IMG/VR virus record: IMGVR_UViG_3300030419_005003
Location: 1 to 23,499 of that record
Length of the DNA stretch: 23,499 bases
DNA from: a virus
Strand: one strand, 5' to 3'
Shown here: piece after piece, positions 2,701 through 21,223 of the stretch
Position numbering within the stretch: position 1 is the first letter of the stretch
Layout: each line of letters opens with the position of its first letter
Notes under the pieces: generated by a model
Seen by the model: the letters and a program-made list of their open reading frames with translations, nothing else
What the model was told of the DNA's origin: nothing
The model's database searches: none
Position numbers and translations under genes: made by a program

Positions 2701-3336
2701 TTAACCTTTTAGAATATCATCAATAATACTGCTAATTTTTTGTTCCTTAGCGGTATTTTCATTAATATAAGCATTTATTTGAGGACTCATCTTAACGTCA
2801 GAAGATACCGAAGGGCTCATATAAGCGTTGGGAGTGGATGGGTCCGACACCATGTCAAAACAAATCAATTGAAAATCATCTTCAACAATAGTATTTCCGC
2901 CCTGTTGCTTTACAGAGCCCAGACCTCTAGATGAAATGCCAAGCTTGACACCAGATTTTACCAAAGATTTGAGAATTTGGCCGCTAGGCGTATCAAGAAC
3001 CTCTATCTTGCCCATGACATTGTTTCCGTCCCACCACATTTTTGTGACAAGATGACTGGCGTTTTTCAAGTTAATAACAGAATCATCGGGATGATCGAGT
3101 TCTCCAAGAGACCTCCTCTCTCCGATGGCCTGCTGGTAATTTTCAACTTCGCGCTGTAGGATGGGCTTGCTGTATATGCGACCGTTTCCGTTTTTAGTGC
3201 CAGCCTTTTGGCAAATACCAACCAGATAAACACCGCCATTGGAAATGCTGCGCTTCTCGACCTCTGTTAAACGCTCAACCGGACATCTGCCCTCGGGGCA
3301 CAATTCAAAAAATTCTGTGAGGAGTTGTTTTGTCAT
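2701..3336 (-). CDS. 21: Prohead maturation protease (gp21-like)
   Basis: The 211 residues match T4 gp21 (212) in length. Diagnostic motifs are NGRIY at 51-55, GELDHP at 78-83 (likely catalytic His82), GISSRGLGS at 133-141 (likely nucleophile Ser135 or Ser136) and DMVSDPSTPNA at 161-171. This is the herpes-type serine protease fold used by T4-type phages to cut scaffold, core and shell proteins at I/L-x-E sites inside the prohead. The C-terminal tail contains INE at 191-193, a possible self-cleavage site. The ATG overlaps the stop of the preceding 38-codon gene as TAATG, and there is no strong ribosome binding site of its own, so translation is probably coupled. Confidence 0.93.
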   Translation of the reverse strand: MTKQLLTEFFELCPEGRCPVERLTEVEKRSISNGGVYLVGICQKAGTKNGNGRIYSKPILQREVENYQQAIGERRSLGELDHPDDSVINLKNASHLVTKMWWDGNNVMGKIEVLDTPSGQILKSLVKSGVKLGISSRGLGSVKQQGGNTIVEDDFQLICFDMVSDPSTPNAYMSPSVSSDVKMSPQINAYINENTAKEQKISSIIDDILKG

Positions 3337-3452
3337 TATTTCTTTTTACCTTTTTTGCCATAGTCGCCTTTGTATTTATTGCCAACCTTTGCAATGTTTT
3401 TAACACCCCACACATAAGAAGCAGGGCTACTTTTAGTTTGTTTCTTGCTCAT
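3336..3452 (-). CDS. Very small basic protein (38 residues) coupled to gp21
   Basis: A 38-residue open frame with 12 lysines and a single acidic residue, ending in GKKGKKK; the middle reads SYVWGVKNIAKVGNKYKGDY. Its TAA stop overlaps the ATG of gp21 by one base (TAATG), the same junction used by clearly real gene pairs in this window, and the ribosome site for gp21 is otherwise poor. That supports real translation. Against it, no good Shine-Dalgarno precedes its own ATG. Function is unknown; the charge suggests binding to DNA or to an acidic partner such as the scaffold. Confidence 0.55.
   Translation of the reverse strand: MSKKQTKSSPASYVWGVKNIAKVGNKYKGDYGKKGKKK
3372..3380 (-). promoter_or_regulatory. 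Candidate T4-type late promoter element upstream of gp21
   Basis: The minus strand reads AATAAATAC, eight of nine bases of the T4 late consensus TATAAATAC. It would start transcripts about 30 bases before the gp21 ATG. It lies inside the 38-codon gene (codons for Asn-Lys-Tyr), and such AT-rich words occur by chance, so this is only a candidate. No sigma factor gp55 gene is visible here to confirm T4-style late transcription. Confidence 0.22.
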
Positions 3453-3464
3453 AATATTATTGCT

Positions 3465-3481
3465 GCGAGGCTCACCCTCGC
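3465..3481 (-). other. Short GC-rich hairpin between two very small genes
   Basis: A perfect six-base stem GCGAGG/CCTCGC with a five-base loop GTGAG. The TGA stop of the 21-codon frame falls across the stem and loop, and the hairpin ends 12 bases before the ATG of the 38-codon gene. There is no T-run after it, so it is not a standard terminator. It could affect re-initiation or message stability. Confidence 0.35.
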
Positions 3482-3537
3482 TTGATTGTGCTGCCGTTAC
3501 AGCAACGACGAACTTCTGGAGTATTGCGCCGTCTCAT
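3472..3537 (-). CDS. Possible 21-residue peptide with strong ribosome binding site
   Basis: The ATG at 3537 overlaps the TGA of the membrane-protein gene as ATGA and is preceded by AGGAGG with a six-base spacer, the best ribosome site in this part of the window. The frame then codes for only 21 residues, MRRRNTPEVRRCC followed by NGSTIKRG, and stops at 3472. Strong initiation with such a short product is odd: either a true micropeptide, a leader, or the start of a longer gene broken by a frameshift (the 38-codon frame downstream is offset by one). No family recognised. Confidence 0.4.
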   Translation of the reverse strand: MRRRNTPEVRRCCNGSTIKRG

Positions 3538-3842
3538 GATTTACCTCCTGTCCTATTAATTTTTAAACCAAAATCATCTAATAACATTGTAATAAAATAA
3601 CTTGTTCCTGCCGAAATGCATCCACACAAGAAAGCATTTGTAAAACTATATTCAAAGCTAAATAGTTCTGTGAAACCATTAATACTCCACAAAAAAACCC
3701 CGACCCAGAAGCCCAAACACAGTGGGCAACTAAATAATTTCCCAAATTGACCTTTGGTAGGCCTAACTGGGTTGAATATCGAACCATATAGAAGTATGAA
3801 AGTCATACCATAGGATGCAAGAACAAAATGTATTAATTCCAC
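3534..3842 (-). CDS. Small integral membrane protein with CxxC-GFW motif
   Basis: I choose a GTG start at 3842 (102 residues): it lies 7 bases after the stop of the preceding gene and AGGTG stands six bases before it. The frame is open further upstream, but that part overlaps the preceding gene and looks non-coding. Hydrophobic segments are at about 3-23, 43-60 and 70-92. CPLCLGFWVG at 39-48 is the striking feature: a Cys-x-x-Cys pair entering a membrane helix. Similar short proteins occur in phages and bacteria, but no function is known to me. The TGA overlaps the next ATG. A role at the membrane during infection or assembly is conceivable, without evidence. Confidence 0.7.
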   Translation of the reverse strand: MELIHFVLASYGMTFILLYGSIFNPVRPTKGQFGKLFSCPLCLGFWVGVFLWSINGFTELFSFEYSFTNAFLCGCISAGTSYFITMLLDDFGLKINRTGGKS

Positions 3843-3849
3843 GCTACAC

Positions 3850-4434
3850 CTATTCTTCGAGTCGATACACAGCAGAGTATTTACCGATACCATAAGGATA
3901 CTTGCCAGTTTGAATTGAGCCCTTTTGATCGGCGTGGCGTTCAGGGTCAAACTCAGTTGACTCCCCAGGGAGGGGATCGGCCAATCTTTGTTCCTGCTCT
4001 TTCTCAAAAGCTTCTTCAAACTCAATTTCGGGTTTCTCTATTTCCATAAACTTATAAATGGAATATAGTGCATGCTGCAAGGCATTATATTTTTTTGATT
4101 CCAAAATAGGAGCTTCCATGGAGTAAAAAACATTCCCCCCTTGAACAGATTCGTTCGAGGTGATACCTTTTCTAAACAGAAATTTGAAAAGTCTATCTTG
4201 TGCTTCATAAACATGATCGCCAAAACTGTCCTTTGCAAAGGCAACAATCTTTTTTTTCTCCATCATTAAAACAATATCAATGTCATTATGATCAAAAATC
4301 ATAATATCGCCGTTGATGCTTTTCTTTGCCTTAAGCCTAATCGTTTCCTTAACTTGTTGTTTGCTTGGGGAAACATCTATCTGCACCTTTCCAGTCGCGT
4401 CAACCTTGTCACCTATTTTAATCTTTATAGCCAT
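3850..4434 (-). CDS. Conserved phage protein of unknown function in head operon
   Basis: A 194-residue protein starting MAIKIKIGDKVDATGKVQID. Residues 1-100 look like mixed beta strands with a motif DHNDIDIVLMMEKKKIVAFA at about 48-67; residues 100-155 are helical, and the C-terminal 40 are Gly/Tyr/Pro rich and likely flexible. No signal peptide or membrane segment. The ATG shares one base with the stop of the upstream gene (TAATG). The position between portal and protease is where T4 has genes 67 and 68, but I see no similarity to those. A head-assembly role is inferred only from position. Confidence 0.75.
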   Translation of the reverse strand: MAIKIKIGDKVDATGKVQIDVSPSKQQVKETIRLKAKKSINGDIMIFDHNDIDIVLMMEKKKIVAFAKDSFGDHVYEAQDRLFKFLFRKGITSNESVQGGNVFYSMEAPILESKKYNALQHALYSIYKFMEIEKPEIEFEEAFEKEQEQRLADPLPGESTEFDPERHADQKGSIQTGKYPYGIGKYSAVYRLEE

Positions 4435-5249
4435 TATGATTTTATCTCACACACTAATTGTTGAATACTTAATAATTGCTTAACCATGGCAGAATCAATC
4501 TCTCTACTCTTATAGGTTTCCAGCAAGCTCATCAGTTCATCTTTCTTTTCTGCCATTTCATTATCGGAATCGAAGAATGAACTTTCTTGTATCAGCCCAC
4601 GCAGTCGGCCTATCTCCTCGTTGAGATATACCTTAAGCTCAAGACCGTTGTCATCAATCGAAGTAATATATCTAGACAAAAGACCTTGTTGTTCTTCAAG
4701 TAAGTTATTAGAATATGTTTCGTTAAACTTTGTGAAGAATGTCTTAAGAGCCAACTTGTCCATGGGTTTAATTTTTGTCTCGCTCTTCTCTACAAGTGTT
4801 GAGCAAATCTTATCAAGCACGGTCTGTTCTAAAAGAACCTGATTCTTTGGTTTAGTCTTGGCATAAAACAATTGATTTATTGTAGCCAGCTCTCTATAAT
4901 CTGGTACAAAGTTGTCATATACACTTTCACCCAGATTCTTGTTAATATCATCGATAAGACGAGTTTGAGAATTGAAGATTACTTTTTTATCAAGCTCTTT
5001 AAATTGCTTCTTGGTTTCAGAAATAAGTTTTTCAGCAATATCCTTACTAAGATTGGTTTCCTTATAGAGTGTCTTATACAGCGACAACTCTTTTCCAAGG
5101 ACGGTGTTTGAATTTAAATGTTTTTTTAAAATTGAAATAATACTGCTTTTCCTCTCAGCCAAGCCCTTGGCTGTGGCAACAGTCAATTCCCTGATTAAGG
5201 ACTCGAAAAGGAAAGCAGTATTTCTTTTTTTATTATGCCTATACTTCAT
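4434..5249 (-). CDS. Helical protein of unknown function after the portal gene
   Basis: A 271-residue, almost entirely helical protein, Lys/Glu/Leu rich, without membrane segments. The N-terminus MKYRHNKKRNTAFLFESLIR is basic and contains LFE (14-16) and IRE (19-21), both fitting the gp21 cleavage rule, but such tripeptides are common in helices. It overlaps the end of the portal gene by 11 bases and is coupled to the next gene by TAATG. I recall similar proteins next to the portal in other marine T4-type phages, without known role. A core or portal-accessory protein of the prohead is the best guess. Confidence 0.72.
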   Translation of the reverse strand: MKYRHNKKRNTAFLFESLIRELTVATAKGLAERKSSIISILKKHLNSNTVLGKELSLYKTLYKETNLSKDIAEKLISETKKQFKELDKKVIFNSQTRLIDDINKNLGESVYDNFVPDYRELATINQLFYAKTKPKNQVLLEQTVLDKICSTLVEKSETKIKPMDKLALKTFFTKFNETYSNNLLEEQQGLLSRYITSIDDNGLELKVYLNEEIGRLRGLIQESSFFDSDNEMAEKKDELMSLLETYKSREIDSAMVKQLLSIQQLVCEIKS

Positions 5250-7221
5250 CCGTCTTATTGCCCTCCATCAACTTAATCAAATCTTTAATTTCAGTATTAA
5301 CCTGCATTAATGTTTCTTCTTCCTTATGGTAAGTAGTTTCTAGACCCTCTGTAATACCATAACTTAATCCTTTGAGTCCATCTTTGCCTTTCCAGCCTGG
5401 GTGTAGTGCTCGCGGGTCTAGCCCAGGCAAGGCTTGGGATGACATATTTCTAGATCTTGCGCCGTGGGTGCGACGATCACCGCCTTTCTGGGAAACAGGC
5501 ATATACCAACTCTTAGATTTCTCTGTCGTGGTTAACTTTTTGCCAAGCTTGTCTTTCTTAAATTTCTTGCCGTCATCCCTTTTGGCGGGGGCAGCCTCAT
5601 CCGGGGGGGTTGCCAAAAGTGTCGGCTCCTCTTCTGGCGTTTCAAGTTCATCGCCGCCCTCTGCGGCCTCACCAGGTTCTTCAGGTGCGAGATCATCCAA
5701 TCCAGTATCTGCACCCGGCTCCTCGCCAAAGTCAGCACCAAGGCCTGCGGCGCCGCCTGTAGAGACTTCCTCTGCAACCTTTTCCAAGGTCGCGTCAAAT
5801 TTCCTATCATGGAACATCTCTCTCTTAATGCGCAACATCTCTTCTTCAGACATATTGAAAATGTTTTCTGACACCCAACGTTTACTAAAGAACCCTTCAG
5901 TTGCCGATGCGGCAGTGTCAAATTTGGTCTTCCAGTGCTCCAACTCTTGTAGTTGTGCCAGCTTGGATGGATTGTTAAGCTTGAGTTTAAAAGAAGTCAA
6001 ATCTTTACCACGGTAGCCACGAGAGAAAAGATGGACAACCGCTATCTTCTCCAACTCGGAGGTGATTGATCTTTGCAATCTCTGCACGGTTCTTGCAAAT
6101 CTAATATCTTTTTGTGCGAGTGTGGTTTTGTCTTCATCGCCACCCTCTCCGCGAGTCAGATAAGATGCCGGCACTTTAAGAGCACTGAATAATTTATCTC
6201 TGAGATATTTAACGTCATCAATGTCTCCAGTGTATGAGCCACCAGGAAGAGTTTCAACTTTTGAAGAGGTACCTCCGCGAACTGGAATAAAGTAGTCCTC
6301 TTCAATGCTAAGAGGATTATATCGAAGGTCGACCTTGCCTGTGTTGGGGTCCACGATCTGGTTTCTCTTCATCTGAGTCATGACTCTTTGCATATATTGT
6401 TCCACGTCTTGTGGTGGTATATTACCAACGTCAACATAAAAAACACGGCGCTCAGGTGAACGAACAATACGATAAGCCATAACAGCATCTTCCAGAAGTG
6501 TTAATTGGCGCCAAATTCTTCTGGCTGAATCTAAGATCGAAGTACCATATGGCGTATGTTTATCGTTGCCAAGGATCCTAAAATGTGCAACCTGCCAATT
6601 CTCTAGGGTCATACCGGCAGAGTTCCACTGGTACTGGACATAATTGGGGTTTTCTTCATCTTCGCCCTCAAGTCTTTCAACTTCTGCCGAAGGTAATCCA
6701 ATAATATGTTTGATACCATCCTTCTCATCGATGTCTAAGTAGAGGAAAAAATCACCATACTTACATAATGACCTTGCCCAGCCAAACAGGTTAAAATCAA
6801 TGTTCAGAACATTGTGAAACAAGTTGTTAAGCTCAAGTTTAATTTCCTCATCTGGCGTTTTAATGTCTAAAAGAGGGGTTAGCTCGGTAGAGGTTGTAAT
6901 CTCGTCTGCAAAAATGTCAAGAGCACTAGCAATCTCTGGCGTGTATTCCATTTGATCAAAATCAGCATAACGATCAAAGCGATTCTGGTTGGCCATGTAG
7001 TTGGCACTATAAGTGCCCAAGCCTTTTTGGCTAAACTGTGATTTTTTAAACTGCTGGCCACTGGCAGACTGGAATCTAGATGCTTGAAAATCTAATTGTC
7101 CTCGCGGCATGCGACGAGGGGTCTGACGTCTATATGTAGCAATTGGGCCAGATAAAAGTCTAGTGAGTTTTCTAAAAAGGTCGCTTTGTGGATTTCTTGG
7201 ATTACTTGTTCTCTTCGCCAT
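5239..7221 (-). CDS. 20: Portal protein (gp20-like) with acidic C-terminal extension
   Basis: The 660 residues include the T4 gp20 signature RIVRSPERRVFYVDVGNIPP at 251-270, plus EYTPEIASALDIFADEITT at 92-110 and the stem-like RDKLFSALKVPASYL at 341-355. The portal is the dodecameric ring at one capsid vertex through which the terminase packs DNA and to which the neck and tail attach; in T4 it also starts prohead assembly. T4 gp20 has 524 residues. The extra length is a C-terminal tail from about 485: Glu/Pro/Gly/Ala-rich and acidic to about 545, then basic Lys/Arg-rich to about 590, then a short conserved-looking end. The gene starts 3 bases after the terminase stop with AAGGG before the ATG. 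Confidence 0.93.
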   Translation of the reverse strand: MAKRTSNPRNPQSDLFRKLTRLLSGPIATYRRQTPRRMPRGQLDFQASRFQSASGQQFKKSQFSQKGLGTYSANYMANQNRFDRYADFDQMEYTPEIASALDIFADEITTSTELTPLLDIKTPDEEIKLELNNLFHNVLNIDFNLFGWARSLCKYGDFFLYLDIDEKDGIKHIIGLPSAEVERLEGEDEENPNYVQYQWNSAGMTLENWQVAHFRILGNDKHTPYGTSILDSARRIWRQLTLLEDAVMAYRIVRSPERRVFYVDVGNIPPQDVEQYMQRVMTQMKRNQIVDPNTGKVDLRYNPLSIEEDYFIPVRGGTSSKVETLPGGSYTGDIDDVKYLRDKLFSALKVPASYLTRGEGGDEDKTTLAQKDIRFARTVQRLQRSITSELEKIAVVHLFSRGYRGKDLTSFKLKLNNPSKLAQLQELEHWKTKFDTAASATEGFFSKRWVSENIFNMSEEEMLRIKREMFHDRKFDATLEKVAEEVSTGGAAGLGADFGEEPGADTGLDDLAPEEPGEAAEGGDELETPEEEPTLLATPPDEAAPAKRDDGKKFKKDKLGKKLTTTEKSKSWYMPVSQKGGDRRTHGARSRNMSSQALPGLDPRALHPGWKGKDGLKGLSYGITEGLETTYHKEEETLMQVNTEIKDLIKLMEGNKTDEV

Positions 7222-7224
7222 GTT

Positions 7225-8799
7225 TTATCCCTTAATAAGCCAAGAATATTCTTGGTAGTGTTTCATTGTATCATTATTTTTTACAGGTTTATAGCCTTGT
7301 TGTCCTTGAATTGTGGTATTCATTGTTGTATCGTATTTTTTCATTGAGCCCAAGAACGCCTTTCTATATTCTAGCTCTCTCTGGTTTACAGTAAAAGCTA
7401 TATCTTTGACCCAACAGCCAATCGCACAAGCCATAATTAAGTCATCATTATACTTTTTCATAGCCTGTGGGCGACCGTTGTTCCAAACGAATGTTTTCAT
7501 TTCATTATATAGCCTATTGGAATATATTGTAATTAGTTGATTTCGTATGAATTCCTCCATTTTTGCTATAATAAGAGGCCGTGTCTTGGAGGTATTAGAA
7601 AATCCTGGTACGGTATTAGTTAATGATTCGGCAGTTACGGGGTCGACATACTCATGACTAGATTTATAAGAATAAAATAAATTTGGATATGTTCTTTCAA
7701 TTAATTTGTCCAATACCGTCCAACCAACTGAGTTGTTTTCTACGACAAGCATACACTCACCATATTCTCTTCCCGCTTCATTTAACATATTGGAAAAAAG
7801 ATCTGGCGTGGGCTTACCCATATATTCAGCTACTATTTCCATGGTTTCTATCTTAAACACATGAAATGCTGAAAAGTCTGCGCCATCTCCGCGAGCAACA
7901 TCAGCAGATATCAGATATGTGTACTGAGGGCTATACTCTTCCCAGATCCAAAAATTACGATCGAACCCAGTTCTGTGCTTTGGTTCCTTTATAGCGAACT
8001 CTATCTTCTGCATGTCTTCAGAGTGGAACACAGTCTCACCGGACATATTAAAATTACACTCAAGCTCCTGAGCTATCTGCCTACGAGACATGTTTCTCGT
8101 TTCTTTCTGAAACCATTCCTGATCGCGGTCGGGATGTGATTGCCATGGCAAAGTCGTAAGATGAAAATCATTTGTTTGTGATTGAGAGTCGACACATGTT
8201 TGGTGGAACCAGTTGCCGACACCGTTTGGGGTCGAAAGAGCGATGCATCGACCACCAGTGGACAACGTTGGATACAAGCCAGTCCACAGTTCTTCAAGAC
8301 CCTCTACGTGTGCCGCCTCGTCGATTACCAATAGCGAAAGAGCTTCGGAACGACCAGCATCGCCACTAGTGGAGGATGCTTTTATTTGAGAGCCGTTGGA
8401 AAGCTCAAAAGAAGTTCTATTGTCAATTTCAATTTTGGCTATCTTAAGCCATTCTGGGAGGTGCCTATGTATGTTTTTGACTTTCTTAACAAGGTTGGCT
8501 GCTGTACCAAATTTTGTTGCTATGACTAAGATGTTCTTATCCCGGTGGAACATCATCATCCATGCCACGTAAGCAGCAGTAATAGTTGAAATGCCAAGCT
8601 GGCGTGCCTTTAAAATAACATTAAAGCGATGATCGTTAAAATCTTTAACTAGCTCGTCTTGAAAATCATAAGTTTTAAACGGCACCAAGCCATGCATGGG
8701 GTGCGATATCTTAGCGTAGTTATTAATGAAGTACACAGGATCCTTTCCAGATTTAACAATCTCTTTTAGGATCTGTTCACGGGAAAGTGAATAGGACAT
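7225..8799 (-). CDS. 17: Terminase large subunit, packaging ATPase and nuclease (gp17-like)
   Basis: A 524-residue DNA-packaging motor protein (T4 gp17: 610). The ATPase half has the Walker A variant LKARQLGIST at 63-72, Walker B LLVIDEAAH at 156-164 (D160, E161) and the coupling motif ALSTPNGVG at 187-195. The nuclease half, an RNase H fold, has SADVARGDGADFS at 298-310 (D300), VVENNSVGW at 352-360 (E354) and YNDDLIMACAI at 450-460 (D452/D453). It docks on the portal, moves DNA into the prohead using ATP, and cuts the concatemer. The following gene is the portal; sheath and tube genes that separate the two in T4 are absent. The small terminase subunit is not recognised. Confidence 0.95.
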   Translation of the reverse strand: MSYSLSREQILKEIVKSGKDPVYFINNYAKISHPMHGLVPFKTYDFQDELVKDFNDHRFNVILKARQLGISTITAAYVAWMMMFHRDKNILVIATKFGTAANLVKKVKNIHRHLPEWLKIAKIEIDNRTSFELSNGSQIKASSTSGDAGRSEALSLLVIDEAAHVEGLEELWTGLYPTLSTGGRCIALSTPNGVGNWFHQTCVDSQSQTNDFHLTTLPWQSHPDRDQEWFQKETRNMSRRQIAQELECNFNMSGETVFHSEDMQKIEFAIKEPKHRTGFDRNFWIWEEYSPQYTYLISADVARGDGADFSAFHVFKIETMEIVAEYMGKPTPDLFSNMLNEAGREYGECMLVVENNSVGWTVLDKLIERTYPNLFYSYKSSHEYVDPVTAESLTNTVPGFSNTSKTRPLIIAKMEEFIRNQLITIYSNRLYNEMKTFVWNNGRPQAMKKYNDDLIMACAIGCWVKDIAFTVNQRELEYRKAFLGSMKKYDTTMNTTIQGQQGYKPVKNNDTMKHYQEYSWLIKG

Positions 8800-14766: not shown

Positions 14767-17700
14767 CTATTCATTAACGCAGGCAAAACCCTCGCTTTTT
14801 TCAATTATTATCTGTTTATCGACAATATCTTTTAAGCTTTCCAGGTGTGAAATAAGCAACACGGTTTTGAACTGCGTTTTTATCATATCAAGAATTCTAA
14901 TGAATCCCTCCATGTTTTCTGCGTCGAGCGCAGTGCCTGGCTCGTCTAGTATAAATATGTCGCCCTTTGGTAAAGTGGACACGTTTAAGAGTGCAAGACG
15001 AATTGCCATGGCAGCAATTGTCTTCTCTGCTCCCGAGCCCATCTCGATGGGACGCGGATCATAATTTGGATGTTTAATTAAAATATCTAACTTTTTATCA
15101 TCATTAACAAACATGATTTCAAATTCCACAATGTTCGTTAAAATTTTTGAAACCTCACTGTTAATTAAGGGGAGACGCTTTTTGATAATATCGTAAGATA
15201 TGCCGTTAGAATGCATACATCGCATAAATAAATCAGAGACTGTGAATTCATTTTCAAGAGTATGGAACTCTTCTTCCTCTTTAACCACTTGATCGTGCTT
15301 CTGTTCCAAGCTGCCATTTTTTCTGTAAAGATCCAGTAGCTGCGCTCTACAAGATTCGAATTCCTTATTTGCGTTTTCAATTTCATTTTCCAGCGTTTCC
15401 TTATCTTTTAGTAAGTTTTCTAAATTTTCAATCGCCTCTTTATTGCTGTTATATTGACCTTCCTTCTCTTTGAGCTTGTCTAAGGTGTTTGCAAGATGAA
15501 ACAGCTTAGACTTTCCACGCTCCAACTCTAATTCAATAGAGCTAACTATATTTTGCTGATGTATTTTCCTTTCCAAGATCTTTTCGTATTTTTCAATATA
15601 GTCGTCAAGCTTGGTGGGATTCATCTCTTCTCGCTTGTTGCCCAGCGTTTTCTTTCTCAAGGAAGATTGATTAATTTTATTCTCATACATCCTCAAATTA
15701 TCAATCGCCAAGTATGCATCATTAACAAACTGACAAGACTTCTGAAATTGCTTCCCACAGGGGACTGTCTTCAAAATATCTATTTTCTTTGAATTTATCT
15801 GTCTCTTTTCATCAAACTCCTTAAGTTCCGTTTCAATTTCGAGTATCTGTTGCTGATACGAATCAACAATCTTCTTTTTATTCCTTGTATCTTCAATATT
15901 GAAAGAGTCCACAAAATTTTGAATCTTTGTGAGAAACTCAGTCTGTTTTTCAAACTCATTTGTTTTTTCCTCAATTGTGGCTTTTAAAGAAGTGCTCTCC
16001 TTGCTATAAACCTTAATGTCGTTCTTTACTTCAGTGATGTCAATAACCTCTGCGGGGATTGAATCGATTTTAGAATTAACATTAAGTAGTTCACTTTCTA
16101 AATTTTTAATTTTCTCAGTTAATGACTCGCAAGTGCGCTCTTTTACTGATAGTTTTGCTTCTTGTCTGGCTAGTTTGGTGCGTGCCTGCTTTCTTTCTTC
16201 TTCAAAATCTCGATCCGACAAGCGACGGATCGCACCCTTTAAGTCAGAAGCGTCCTCCTTGCAAAGCTTAAACTTCTTTTCAAAAACTTCCAAGTCCAAA
16301 AACTTAGCAAGAATCTCCTTTCGGCGGGTGGAACCCTCGCTAATGTAAGACAAAGATTCAAGCTGGCTGGCCATGGAGGTGGTTAGAAAATCCTCAAGCG
16401 TACCAAACACCTTGCGAATGTTCTTATCAGTTTCTAAGCGACTAGTGCCATTAAGTGACTCCACATCACCTGTCGCATTATCAAGTACATCGAACTCGAC
16501 ATCAGTTTTAGCCTCAAGTGTTTCCTTGCCCTTCAGACGCTTAATGTACTTGGTGCTCTTTCTCTCAACGCGATATGTTTTAGAGCCGATATCAATCTCA
16601 ACATAGCCGCGACAGTCGTCTCTATTCTGGTTAATCAGATTGAGATTCTTGCGGCTGTTCTTGGAAGTGGTGTTGTAAAGGGTATACAGAAAGCTATCAA
16701 TAATGCTTGATTTACCAGAGAAGTTCTTTCCAAAAATCCCAACAATACCCTCAAGATTAGAAAATTGTATGCTGTTACCTTCTCCATAATTGAAAAGATT
16801 ATCCCATTCAATCTTCTTAAGCTTCCAATTGATGTTTCTAGAGACCTCCTCTTCTTCTTCAACTATCGTATTATATTTGCGGTTCATACGATAAACATTA
16901 TCTAGAGTTTCTTCTTCTGGCTGATAGTCCGACAGATACTCTGAAATGAGTTCCTCTTGCACAGCTACATCTCTCAAGTCTTCTTGTACAAGAGAATTGG
17001 CCAAGTCCTCAACATTGCCGCGCTCTCCTGCACTTCTATTCAAGTATGTGACGGCTTCAGGCTTAAAGCGTGATTTAGCGACGTCAACAGCCTTGCGAAC
17101 AGCATCGAGTGGTAAATTATTCTCTGAAACCAAACGAAGGCGAGCACCTTTCTGGATTTCTAGTTTATTTGGAAGGCGACCCTTTGGGGTGAGCTTGATC
17201 GTAATAAAAGGCTTTGGGTTATCAATCGCATAGTGTGTGCATTCATAGGTGTCCCTATCGTCAATGTCCCACACTAAGAAACCCTTGTCGTTAGTCTCCC
17301 CGTGGTTTTGCTGGATCGTGGAACCGCAATAGCGAATCTTACCATCTTTGTCTAGTCTCTGGTCGGTCTTGTGGATATCTCCAAGAAAAGCATAGTCAAA
17401 ATTATCAAAGATATTAATATCATTTTCGCCGTGCTCCATCACCCAGCCGGTATCAGTCTCAATACCACTCACGGTTCCGTGATAAAGTGCGATATTAATC
17501 CTTTCTTTGTCGGTTGGATCAATCCAATTCTTTCTATCGAAAACCGACAGGACATTTAAAGTAAACTTTTCGTCTAGATTTGTCTCGCCAGAGTCCTTAA
17601 GTAAATATAAATTAGAGTGTCCTAAAGCATTAACAATTGGTGTAAGAGCGTCTTGACGGCTAGAGTTTCTAAGATTACCATCATGATTGCCAAGAATCAC

Positions 17701-17922
17701 ATACGTAGGGGCAATATCAGCCAGGTTCTTGAGAAAATCAGAACACATATCCACAAACTCAGGACTAATTTGCGTTTTAGTGTGGGCAATATCGCCACAG
17801 TGAATAATATAATCCACTTCAAGCTCTCGAAGCTTTTCATATATACGGGAAAATACGACACGATATTCTTTATGATACTTCAGATTGCGAATATGCGTAT
17901 CGCCAAAATGTGCAAACCTCAT
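14767..17922 (-). CDS. Fused recombination nuclease-ATPase (gp47-gp46, Mre11-Rad50/SbcD-SbcC type)
   Basis: One uninterrupted frame of 1051 residues (ATG at 17922, GGAG upstream; the TTG at 17925 is less likely). Residues 1-330 are the gp47/SbcD phosphoesterase: FGDTHI (D8, H10), HCGDIAH (D44), GNHDG (N79, H80), YHG (H148), GDIHK (H184). A Glu-rich linker (about 335-362) leads to the gp46/SbcC ATPase: Walker A GKNFSGKSS at 398-406, coiled coil about 550-890 with a hook-like PCG-x6-C (C722, C730), signature GSGAEK at 962-967, Walker B FILDEP (D993, E994) and H-loop SHL (H1026). In T4 these are two proteins that together process DNA ends for recombination-dependent replication. All catalytic motifs are present in both halves. 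The fusion is seen directly; function follows from the families. Confidence 0.93.
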   Translation of the reverse strand: MRFAHFGDTHIRNLKYHKEYRVVFSRIYEKLRELEVDYIIHCGDIAHTKTQISPEFVDMCSDFLKNLADIAPTYVILGNHDGNLRNSSRQDALTPIVNALGHSNLYLLKDSGETNLDEKFTLNVLSVFDRKNWIDPTDKERINIALYHGTVSGIETDTGWVMEHGENDINIFDNFDYAFLGDIHKTDQRLDKDGKIRYCGSTIQQNHGETNDKGFLVWDIDDRDTYECTHYAIDNPKPFITIKLTPKGRLPNKLEIQKGARLRLVSENNLPLDAVRKAVDVAKSRFKPEAVTYLNRSAGERGNVEDLANSLVQEDLRDVAVQEELISEYLSDYQPEEETLDNVYRMNRKYNTIVEEEEEVSRNINWKLKKIEWDNLFNYGEGNSIQFSNLEGIVGIFGKNFSGKSSIIDSFLYTLYNTTSKNSRKNLNLINQNRDDCRGYVEIDIGSKTYRVERKSTKYIKRLKGKETLEAKTDVEFDVLDNATGDVESLNGTSRLETDKNIRKVFGTLEDFLTTSMASQLESLSYISEGSTRRKEILAKFLDLEVFEKKFKLCKEDASDLKGAIRRLSDRDFEEERKQARTKLARQEAKLSVKERTCESLTEKIKNLESELLNVNSKIDSIPAEVIDITEVKNDIKVYSKESTSLKATIEEKTNEFEKQTEFLTKIQNFVDSFNIEDTRNKKKIVDSYQQQILEIETELKEFDEKRQINSKKIDILKTVPCGKQFQKSCQFVNDAYLAIDNLRMYENKINQSSLRKKTLGNKREEMNPTKLDDYIEKYEKILERKIHQQNIVSSIELELERGKSKLFHLANTLDKLKEKEGQYNSNKEAIENLENLLKDKETLENEIENANKEFESCRAQLLDLYRKNGSLEQKHDQVVKEEEEFHTLENEFTVSDLFMRCMHSNGISYDIIKKRLPLINSEVSKILTNIVEFEIMFVNDDKKLDILIKHPNYDPRPIEMGSGAEKTIAAMAIRLALLNVSTLPKGDIFILDEPGTALDAENMEGFIRILDMIKTQFKTVLLISHLESLKDIVDKQIIIEKSEGFACVNE

Positions 17923-17976
17923 CAATACTCCACAGGTTAGTAGAGACTATAGTAACAAAATCAACGAAGGTAAATG

Positions 17977-18567
17977 CTATAATTTCTCTTCCGGAGCTTG
18001 AGAGCCGCCAAGTCTTGCTTGTTGAGTCTTGAGCACGCTTATTGCATCTGCTATATTAACCCCCAAGTTGTTGGCCATGCCAGCTAAAAATTGTGCTTTT
18101 TCAAATTCATCGGCGGCGCGGAGGTTGTCGAAAAAAGGCCCTAAAGACTTTGCAGCAGATAACTTCTTTGCCAATGCCGCACCTTTTGACTTCAGCTTCT
18201 TGGTCGCGTCTCCGAGCACTTCGTCAACTGCGTACTTAGCCTGCATTTTCCCAAGGGGGGTTGAGCGGTATTCATCAGAGTCCATGCTCATGATCTGCCC
18301 TTTCTGTATCGTGTAAACAGTCGGTGTAAAATTGGCGCTGCGGCCTTCTAGGCCGGCCTTGGCGTATTCCACAAGTGATGCCACCATGATTAATTTTGGC
18401 TGCTCATCGGGTCCGCTAATGTTGACATAATTATCATCGTTTAGTCTACTGCCAGTCGTCTTGCCTGCGGAATCATAGATACTAAAATAAGTTGGAAAGC
18501 TGCCTTCTCCAAGAGCGTCTATCTCTTCTTTAATAAGCTGCTTTAATTTTTCTTTCGTGATCTTCAT
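17977..18567 (-). CDS. Unknown protein with capsid-targeting-like N-terminus
   Basis: A 196-residue protein starting MKITKEKLKQLIKEEIDALG. This helical start contains IKE at 12-14, fitting the gp21 cleavage rule, and resembles short N-terminal leaders I recall on many unrelated proteins of marine T4-type phages. The rest has a small beta-rich part (about 25-90, with SIYDSAGKTTGSRLNDDNYV) and a helical C-terminal half rich in Ala, Lys and Leu, ending in a Pro/Glu tail. The ATG overlaps the stop of the 570-residue gene (ATGA) and has AGGAG upstream, so they are made together. The leader resembles the capsid-targeting sequence of T4 internal proteins. Function unknown. Confidence 0.72.
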   Translation of the reverse strand: MKITKEKLKQLIKEEIDALGEGSFPTYFSIYDSAGKTTGSRLNDDNYVNISGPDEQPKLIMVASLVEYAKAGLEGRSANFTPTVYTIQKGQIMSMDSDEYRSTPLGKMQAKYAVDEVLGDATKKLKSKGAALAKKLSAAKSLGPFFDNLRAADEFEKAQFLAGMANNLGVNIADAISVLKTQQARLGGSQAPEEKL

Positions 18568-20276
18568 AGTATTGCTCCTAGTTTGCGCATTACCTTATTA
18601 ACTAGTTGTTCTGTTGTAAAGTAAGCGGAAGTTTTTGTGGCCTCGGGATCGAATCGTCCCTGGATGTATTCGACGGCCTTTTCTGTTGAGAAATCCGGAT
18701 CTAAATATAACATAATCGAGTCATATAAGTTATTAAACTTTCCGGTTGGCATTTGGATCACCTTGTTCATGACATACCAAGTCTTAAGTTCTGAATATTT
18801 GGGATCTTCATACCTCTTAACCGGCTTTGGCTTGGGCGCCTTGGCCTTCTTGGCTTTCTTCTCTCCAGGTTTTTTTGGTTCCTCGGGAGCGTCGGGGAAA
18901 TATTTAAACATATCTCCCTTTTTACCTCTAGCAGAAATACTACGGACGCCTGGAGTGACTATTTTTCCCTTCTCTGATTTGATACCGAGAATAAACTTTG
19001 CTGCCTCTTCAAAACCTTCACTGTCGATCTCGTCAAATATTATACCAAGCCAACTGTTCTTTTCAAATTCATCTCGTATATCATCAAGGTTCATGTTAAT
19101 CTTTTTAATATTTGTGATTGCCTCTTTAATCTGGCCAATACTCTCTTCTGTGGTAGCGGCGTCTTCACCAGATTGGCGGCGCTTCATGGCCACCCAAACA
19201 ATCGCTTGTAACTCATGAGGCAATAAGCCAAGTCTCTTTGCTTCTTGGCCGACGAGGCCGGCCATGTGTCGATACGATACAGGGTCGGACATCATCTTAC
19301 CCTTAAGGGCTGTGAATTCTTTCTGTGTTGAAGCCCTCTTAAGCATGGGGTAGAAGGCATCAATCATCCATGTGTCAATTGTTGAGTTCCACATATACAT
19401 ATCATTGTATGTCATGGCACCGGTATCTGCATCACGCGAACCAGCAAGCTCTGGTGCTATTAGATTTAAAACAAAATTTGGCACCTTGTTTGCTTTTGTG
19501 AAACCTCGAAGTTCACCGGGCTCTCTTTTTTCAGCACCAACAAAAGTCTCCAAATAATCTTTCAGCATTTCTGGTCTTTCTTTAGCGTCTTCCTCGACAG
19601 CCTTAAACATATAAGCAGCCTCGACAAGATTTAAGGAAAACTTAGCCCTCGGTGAGTAGGTTGCAATTAAAAGACCAAGCAAAGCTGCATCTCTATCAGA
19701 TTTAGTTTCTTGATCTAGCAGCTTTCTTATGGTATGATACCAATCACGAGCTTCTATAAAGAGATCACCTGCTCTCTTGGTTTCTTCCACCATAAGCGCA
19801 AAATCATCAAGCACTTCTTGGGGGACTTTTAGCACGTAGGAGCCAGCTTCGAACTCAGCCGGGGTCATCCTACCTATGCCCCCTTCTAAGTCCTTACGGG
19901 ACGCTCCAGGGCGCACTGTGGGGATCTCTCCTTCTGGACCGTAATACTTCTGACGTAGAGCAATTAGCTCCTCTTCTTCCTCTGGGGAGAACTGCGTTTT
20001 GCCGGCGCCTCGCCGTCCCTTGAAACGGTCACTAGCATCTACAACATCGCCCTCTGCAACTTTACGCATGGGCTCTGCCTCAACGGGCTCAAGCATGTCT
20101 TTTATGCTAAGTAAGGTTGGGCCGGTGGCTCCAAGAACCTTGGATGCCTCAGAGGATATCTTTCTAATAGACGCCTCTAGCTTTTTGACCTCTGCTCCTG
20201 TGAAGACAAATTGCTTTGTGCCAGATTCTATAACTTCATTAATTAATTTTTCTATTGCTTCAAGAGTTAATTTCAT
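18564..20276 (-). CDS. Large protein of unknown function with capsid-targeting-like N-terminus
   Basis: A 570-residue protein starting MKLTLEAIEKLINEVIESGT, with INE at 12-14 in the same position as IKE in the next gene. A flexible charged region (about 70-150) follows. The core at about 155-380 is helical and holds ATYSPRAKFSLNLVEAAYMF, KANKVPNFVLNLI, NSTIDTWMIDAFYP and LLPHELQAIVWVAMKRR. I recall this order of motifs in uncharacterised phage proteins, but cannot name an activity. A Lys/Pro-rich linker (about 465-490) leads to a helical end. It may be an internal head protein injected with the DNA, or a replication-linked enzyme, since primase and recombination genes flank it. No strong ribosome site precedes the ATG; the gap to the primase stop is 11 bases. 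Confidence 0.72.
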   Translation of the reverse strand: MKLTLEAIEKLINEVIESGTKQFVFTGAEVKKLEASIRKISSEASKVLGATGPTLLSIKDMLEPVEAEPMRKVAEGDVVDASDRFKGRRGAGKTQFSPEEEEELIALRQKYYGPEGEIPTVRPGASRKDLEGGIGRMTPAEFEAGSYVLKVPQEVLDDFALMVEETKRAGDLFIEARDWYHTIRKLLDQETKSDRDAALLGLLIATYSPRAKFSLNLVEAAYMFKAVEEDAKERPEMLKDYLETFVGAEKREPGELRGFTKANKVPNFVLNLIAPELAGSRDADTGAMTYNDMYMWNSTIDTWMIDAFYPMLKRASTQKEFTALKGKMMSDPVSYRHMAGLVGQEAKRLGLLPHELQAIVWVAMKRRQSGEDAATTEESIGQIKEAITNIKKINMNLDDIRDEFEKNSWLGIIFDEIDSEGFEEAAKFILGIKSEKGKIVTPGVRSISARGKKGDMFKYFPDAPEEPKKPGEKKAKKAKAPKPKPVKRYEDPKYSELKTWYVMNKVIQMPTGKFNNLYDSIMLYLDPDFSTEKAVEYIQGRFDPEATKTSAYFTTEQLVNKVMRKLGAIL

Positions 20277-20287
20277 AATATGATTTG

Positions 20288-21223
20288 TTAAATTCCAGCA
20301 AGTGCTTTCAATAAATAGTTGGTTGTATTCATAAGTGTTGCATTTTGTTTTCTAAGAACAAATTCCTTTTTAGACATCTCTCCGACATCCGAATATGGAG
20401 AAATATCAACTTTATAAATTTCAATTCCATACTTCAACAGATCACTGATCAGCCTCATCGCTTTCTTCTCGGCATCGGGGTCAAGGGCGATATAAACCGG
20501 AGTATCGTTTTTTGCAATTTCTTGGAATAGTTTTGAATTCTCGCGTAAAGTAGAGCCAAGAATTGGTACCGCGTTTGGGCCGGCAATTATCGCATCAAAA
20601 ATGCCTTCAGTGATAATTAGATCTTCATCAAAATCCAAATACAGGTGATTGAATACTATGTCCTTCTTAGCAGGGGGATTCTTGTATTTTTTCCAATCGT
20701 CAGAATACGATCTAGCTGTAAAATAATTTGGATCACCAGACAGAGAGAAAGAAGGAACTATGACTCTACTCTCATACTCGCCCTCAAAACAATAACCAAT
20801 TTTCCACCTTACAATATCACTCTTTGTGAGTCCACGGGAATATAAGTAATTTAAAGCATAAGTCGCCGTAGCAGGAAGATTTTTGTTTGCCAATGAAATA
20901 AACTCTTTTGGCAAGGGAACAACCTGTTCAACAACCTCTTCCTCATTAAACAGATTTTCTGAAAATAGTTTAATGTCGACCTGGCTGGTTAAAGCCGTCC
21001 AGTCAGAGCGATTCTTGTAAGTACCATACCTTCTAACGAGGCGATAAAGTGATCTGCCAGAATAATCACAAACCCAGCACTTAAAAACATCCTTGGGAAG
21101 GTTTACCGACAGTTTCTTTTTGTGGTGCTCACACTTAGGGCAGTGGAACAATATCTCGCTATTAGAACGATAAGAGTCTCCCAAGACCTCTCTTAGGATT
21201 TTGAGCTTTTTTCCTTCTGACAT
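20288..21223 (-). CDS. 61: DNA primase (gp61-like)
   Basis: A 311-residue primase (T4 gp61: 342). The N-terminal zinc site is CPKC at 28-31 and CWVC at 49-52, with HH at 33-34 between them. The TOPRIM-type catalytic part has IITEGIFDAII at 203-213 (E206) and YIALDPDAE at 244-252 (D248, D250), the acidic residues that hold metal ions. Primases lay RNA primers for lagging-strand synthesis and in T4 work with helicase gp41, which is not in this window. The gene overlaps the end of the RuvC gene by 31 bases. The C-terminal helical tail from about 280 may be the helicase contact. Confidence 0.9.
   Translation of the reverse strand: MSEGKKLKILREVLGDSYRSNSEILFHCPKCEHHKKKLSVNLPKDVFKCWVCDYSGRSLYRLVRRYGTYKNRSDWTALTSQVDIKLFSENLFNEEEVVEQVVPLPKEFISLANKNLPATATYALNYLYSRGLTKSDIVRWKIGYCFEGEYESRVIVPSFSLSGDPNYFTARSYSDDWKKYKNPPAKKDIVFNHLYLDFDEDLIITEGIFDAIIAGPNAVPILGSTLRENSKLFQEIAKNDTPVYIALDPDAEKKAMRLISDLLKYGIEIYKVDISPYSDVGEMSKKEFVLRKQNATLMNTTNYLLKALAGI

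Follow-up and report, generated by a model that had tools for sequence, protein, structure and literature searches.

The window analyzed here, a 23,499-nt stretch of viral DNA (IMG/VR record IMGVR_UViG_3300030419_005003), carries on its minus strand, at 14767–17922, one frame of 1,051 aa in which an Mre11/SbcD nuclease is followed by a Rad50/SbcC ATPase. The fused, intact frame is confirmed, and it is highly probable that its product is the phage Mre11-Rad50 (gp47-gp46) enzyme on a single polypeptide, two chains of which would make the equivalent of an ordinary M2R2 complex acting in DNA-end processing. The frame opens with an ATG at 17922, preceded at ~6 nt by GGAG, and closes with a stop at 14767–14769; a TTG one codon further upstream, at 17925, is the listed start. 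Within the protein, Pfam places Metallophos (PF00149) at residues 2–186 (E 5e-13) and AAA_23 (PF13476) at residues 372–613 (E 1e-10), and PHROG matches are SbcD-like for one half and SbcC-like for the other. The gene, its parts, and the primase-like gene upstream of it are as follows:

14767..17922, minus strand: whole fused Mre11-Rad50 gene, 1,051 aa, stop included (Pfam and PHROG matches)
17227..17922, minus strand: Mre11/SbcD phosphoesterase core, residues 1–232 (PF00149; predicted strands and helices)
17371..17382, minus strand: nuclease motif V, GDIH, residues 181–184, with Asp for the usual first His (invariant, 82 of 82)
17023..17226, minus strand: putative Mre11 capping domain, residues ~233–300 (predicted beta/helix domain, assigned by its position between core and helix-loop-helix)
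16855..16968, minus strand: predicted Rad50-binding helix-loop-helix (HLH), residues 319–356 (helices 319–330 and 337–356, block pLDDT ~69–92; Foldseek alignment to full-length Mre11/SbcD chains of MR complexes)
16831..16854, minus strand: actual linker, residues 357–364, non-helical, between the HLH and the first Rad50 strand
16291..16830, minus strand: Rad50 N-terminal ATPase lobe with Walker A, residues 365–544 (PF13476; motif alignment)
15766..16290, minus strand: ascending coiled-coil arm, residues 545–719 (predicted structure)
15730..15765, minus strand: hook apex, C722 and C730, C-x7-C (alignment of 82)
15214..15729, minus strand: descending coiled-coil arm, residues ~732–903 (predicted structure)
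14770..15213, minus strand: Rad50 C-terminal lobe, residues 904–1051, with signature, Walker B, D-loop, and H-loop (motif alignment, sequence profile)
20288..21223, minus strand: primase-like gene, upstream and in the same direction (phrog_47 DNA primase)

Several lines of evidence indicate that the fusion is real. The original prediction held that a single frame encodes the nuclease and then the ATPase, and that both halves are intact rather than decaying. The domain order is borne out by the open reading frame, by the Pfam and PHROG matches, and by the motifs of 82 aligned homologues; the motifs are near-invariant, and the reading of both halves as intact is upheld. In a scan of viral contigs, all of the best 80 IMG/VR relatives (54–67% identity, ~1,020–1,093 residues) show a single uninterrupted frame, although in L020 the contig boundary falls within the gene and the frame begins there. 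The cultured phages that we looked at usually keep nuclease and ATPase in two separate genes, and a sequencing or assembly error that deleted a stop and a start between two ordinary genes could in principle mimic a fusion. Because the same uninterrupted frame recurs in these 80 relatives, which come from many independent metagenomes, we reject such an error, the chance of which is negligible; the length of the joint is also constant, the stretch from N347 to W366 spanning 20 residues in 81 of 82 proteins. The signs that could have overturned the original prediction were looked for: none of the best 80 relatives has a stop at the joint, and we found no two-gene version within the window's phage group. 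Further afield, Microcystis phage Mel-JY01, a 735-kb metagenomic phage, and the relatives of each also have the fusion in a single frame.

We also asked how many copies such phages carry, scanning 16 long records (13 from IMG/VR of 147–205 kb, Mel-JY01, and two jumbo records) for AAA_23 and Metallophos. Exactly one AAA_23 (SbcC-type) match, located in the fused gene, was found in 14 of the 16, and the phages thus generally carry no copy beyond the fusion; in LR756508 the sole such match lies in the second part of an interrupted fused gene. Of the other two records, one shows its fused gene by the phosphoesterase match alone, and the 735-kb record has more than one AAA_23 match. These counts, together with the single phosphoesterase present in most, led us to reject the idea that the genomes carry a separate gp46/gp47 pair besides the fusion. 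Cellular genome contigs yielded 13 fusion loci, mostly on small contigs of metagenome-assembled genomes. A cellular origin was rejected as well, since the sole "chromosome" locus (WOR-3, L107, CP070664.1) is flanked by runs of N and by phage genes; it is apparently a mis-binned phage fragment scaffolded into a WOR-3 chromosome. Plasmid relatives were likewise set aside: the matches were partial and in most cases hit an AAA family ATPase; a single Nicoliella plasmid has two adjacent genes.

Trees inferred by maximum likelihood, one for the nuclease half and one for the ATPase lobes, place all 18 sampled fused sequences beyond one branch (support 99/98 and 100/99), with the sampled two-gene phages on its opposite side in both trees; both trees are unrooted, contain some long branches, and leave out the Mimivirus-type fusions. 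Since the fused sequences lie on one side of one branch in each tree, the data are consistent with a single fusion event in the window's lineage.

The nuclease half contains calcineurin-type phosphoesterase motifs I–IV (DxH, GD, GNHD/E, H) as D8-x-H10, G43-D44, G78-N-H-D81, and H148, followed by G181-D-I-H184, all near-invariant among the 82 aligned homologues. The claim that all nuclease motifs are present therefore holds for motifs I–IV but not for the canonical form of motif V, which is GDIH instead of GHxH in 82 of 82, with the second His retained and Asp in place of the first. Among SbcD proteins of two-gene phages, eight of nine have GHxH, the exception being a T5-like Vibrio phage with GDLH. 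Judged by these motifs, the nuclease half is homologous to Mre11/SbcD and should work like it, but as a motif-V variant rather than a canonical member. Because the Asp replaces a metal-binding His, nuclease activity of the fused protein is presumed rather than guaranteed. If the Asp weakened metal binding, as the replacement of GHxH in fused members might suggest, the fusion could be a catalytically altered or inactive nuclease serving mainly as a structural DNA tether. We regard this as quite unlikely given that every other metal ligand is invariant, that Asp is itself a good metal ligand whose strict conservation suggests function and not decay, and that GDLH also occurs in a two-gene Vibrio phage.

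In three distant loci the coding sequence is disturbed at the nuclease motifs. In L003 (LR756508.1, a 484-kb phage) ~1 kb at 6550–7638 interrupts the fused gene just after GDIHKRQ; the insertion holds a 305-aa Cys-rich, endonuclease-like frame, and an Rfam search of it matched no intron family. At the same spot in L104, after GDIHKMQYM, there are ~100 extra out-of-frame bases (3538–3686), and the gene is split into frames of 224 and 860 aa with overlapping start and stop; these bases may be left over from an intron, represent a bypass element, or reflect an error. In L110 (1–110) the reading frame joins the protein immediately behind the GNHD position, the junction reading ...NGKISISGN|C, a sequence resembling the C-terminal end of an intein, here within metal-binding motif III.

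In the ATPase half the claim that all ABC-ATPase motifs are present is upheld: the 82 aligned homologues conserve Walker A (GKNFSGKSS), signature (SGAEK), Walker B (FILDEP), D-loop (ALD), and H-loop (H1026). The ATPase is split as in Rad50, with Walker A in the N-terminal lobe and the remainder in the C-terminal lobe, and the signature reads SGAEK rather than SGGE/Q. The lobes are separated in the AlphaFold2 model by a long antiparallel coiled coil with helical arms at residues 545–719 and 731–903. At its tip the window protein has C-x7-C and not the CxxC of the zinc hook, and the spacing is non-canonical in most of the 82 (Cx6C in 58, Cx7C in 17, CxxC in 7). From the alignment we take the hook to be a putative zinc-hook variant in an otherwise canonical ATPase; in a literature search we found no relevant publication on divergent hooks of phage Rad50. 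Within one family of ~55% identity (window 15730–15765 and loci L032, L045, L055, L058, L077, L080) the hook is of either a PCG-x-C type (Cx6-7C) or an EYDPxCxxC type (CxxC), as if hook tips had been exchanged.

The AlphaFold2 model, built with 46 sequences, has a mean pLDDT of 82 and a whole-chain pTM of only 0.46, such that the placement of the nuclease relative to the Rad50 head is not fixed by it. Mre11-Rad50 chains lead the Foldseek matches in the PDB, with both Rad50 and full-length Mre11/SbcD chains aligned, and a sequence profile search agrees, matching SbcC, Rad50, SbcD, and Mre11. At the joint, the model predicts helices 319–330 and 337–356 where the Rad50-binding HLH at the C-terminus of Mre11 is expected, Rad50 binding being predicted from this position, and next a strand at 365–374 that belongs to ATPase lobe I. 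Because the helices directly precede this strand, the Glu-rich stretch that had been described as the linker between the halves is present but is, in the predicted fold, mostly the last HLH helix, and the true linker is ~8 residues.

Based on this architecture, we propose that an N-terminal phosphoesterase and cap would lead through the HLH and the ~8-residue linker into the Rad50 ATPase, and that the two lobes of one chain would pair via the antiparallel coiled coil with the cysteine hook at its tip. Two chains would then join, with contacts at the Mre11 dimer interface and between Rad50 heads that sandwich ATP, and the resulting M2R2 equivalent would act on DNA ends as T4 gp46/47 does, serving both recombination-dependent replication and the breakdown of host DNA; for the replication role, namely DNA-end preparation, we reason by analogy with gp46/47. 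In every Rad50/SbcC the C-terminal lobe folds back along the coiled coil. The fold-back that the original prediction treated as a special problem is therefore normal Rad50 folding, and the further suggestion that fusion raises a new problem of pairing lobes and nucleases finds no support either, as the joint fits the known Mre11–Rad50 head, an argument already published (PMC3175470). With merely ~8 residues between the HLH and lobe I in the predicted fold, the nuclease of one chain might dock on another chain's Rad50 head and build higher-order assemblies in place of a simple M2R2 dimer; we consider this very unlikely, however, since a linker of 9–12 residues, close to that of the window protein, was estimated to be enough for the ~28 A gap in the T. 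maritima complex (PMC3175470). Along the chain, nuclease, cap, HLH, short linker, lobe I, coil, and lobe II succeed one another just as they are arranged in space in the known complex; we therefore infer a cis assembly, with the usual M2R2 complex as the most likely outcome when two fused chains combine.

The supposition that the fusion is unusual is not supported. Mimivirus R555 and twelve other Mre11/Rad50 fusions, one of them from a Bacillus phage, were described in 2011 with the same domain order by Yoshida, Claverie, and Ogata, who argued that the joint suits the known complex, in which the Mre11 C-terminus lies ~28 A from the Rad50 N-terminus (PMC3175470). They found that R555-like genes, including those of marine viruses, are plentiful in the viral fractions of aquatic samples, probably derive from phages, and share scaffolds with primase genes, and they reported a His206-to-Asp change in motif V of R555 (PMC3175470). 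R555-type fusions have Mre11 N-terminal and Rad50 C-terminal in one chain and keep the HLH and ~9–12 extra residues; the window protein, with its predicted HLH and short linker, fits this description. Compared by its published description, R555 shares the domain order, the HLH with short linker, and the Asp for the motif V His, but it has 1,351 aa, a longer coil, and an amoeba virus as its source, whereas the 1,051-aa window protein belongs to a phage with T4-like head genes. A fold search of viral proteins with the window protein returned giant-virus proteins of fused size first (e.g., Tupanvirus A0A6N1NVE8), with further phages listed.

T4 likewise has the nuclease upstream of the ATPase, from the same families, but does encode gp47 and gp46 as two genes, as had been stated, with 46.1 and 46.2 between them; its motif V is GHFH and its hook CPTC. 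The E. coli SbcCD and archaeal and Thermotoga Mre11-Rad50 proteins match the window protein by sequence profile and fold but are separate subunits. E. coli SbcC alone has 1,048 aa, with a coil much longer than that of the window protein. Microcystis phage Mel-JY01 (WWT39521.1) has the same fusion, with 30% identity over 99% of the length and a primase just upstream, but it belongs to another sub-clade and its hook is CxxC (CKHC). A primase-like gene is also directly or nearly upstream in several distant fusion loci (L002, L003, L088). In the window, a 570-aa gene (18564–20276, DUF7178) lies between primase and fusion. T4-like prohead protease, portal (Portal_T4, E 6e-86), and terminase genes occupy 2701–8799, and the portals closest to the window's are those of Mel-JY01 (43%) and Flavobacterium phage immuto (40%).

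The fusion is thus real, intact, and lineage-wide but expected, a well-supported addition to those described in 2011; what is new is in the details only, namely its lineage-wide fixation, the fixed motif V Asp, the existence of two types of hook, and interruptions resembling mobile elements at the nuclease motifs. A bolder reading, that one phage lineage (marine T4-like, freshwater, and jumbo) runs all its end processing on a one-chain Mre11-Rad50 with an Asp-modified nuclease center and an exchangeable hook (CxxC or Cx6-7C), and that this is a mechanistically distinct enzyme class and not a mere gene fusion, seems to us rather unlikely. As a compact, natural, single-chain 1:1 Mre11–Rad50 of ~120 kDa, the protein would be a handy model for cryo-EM and single-molecule study of nuclease–ATPase communication. 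The window fusion adjoins T4-like portal, terminase, and prohead protease genes, and the sequences bear out the 2011 suggestion that R555-like marine fusions are often of phage origin (PMC3175470).
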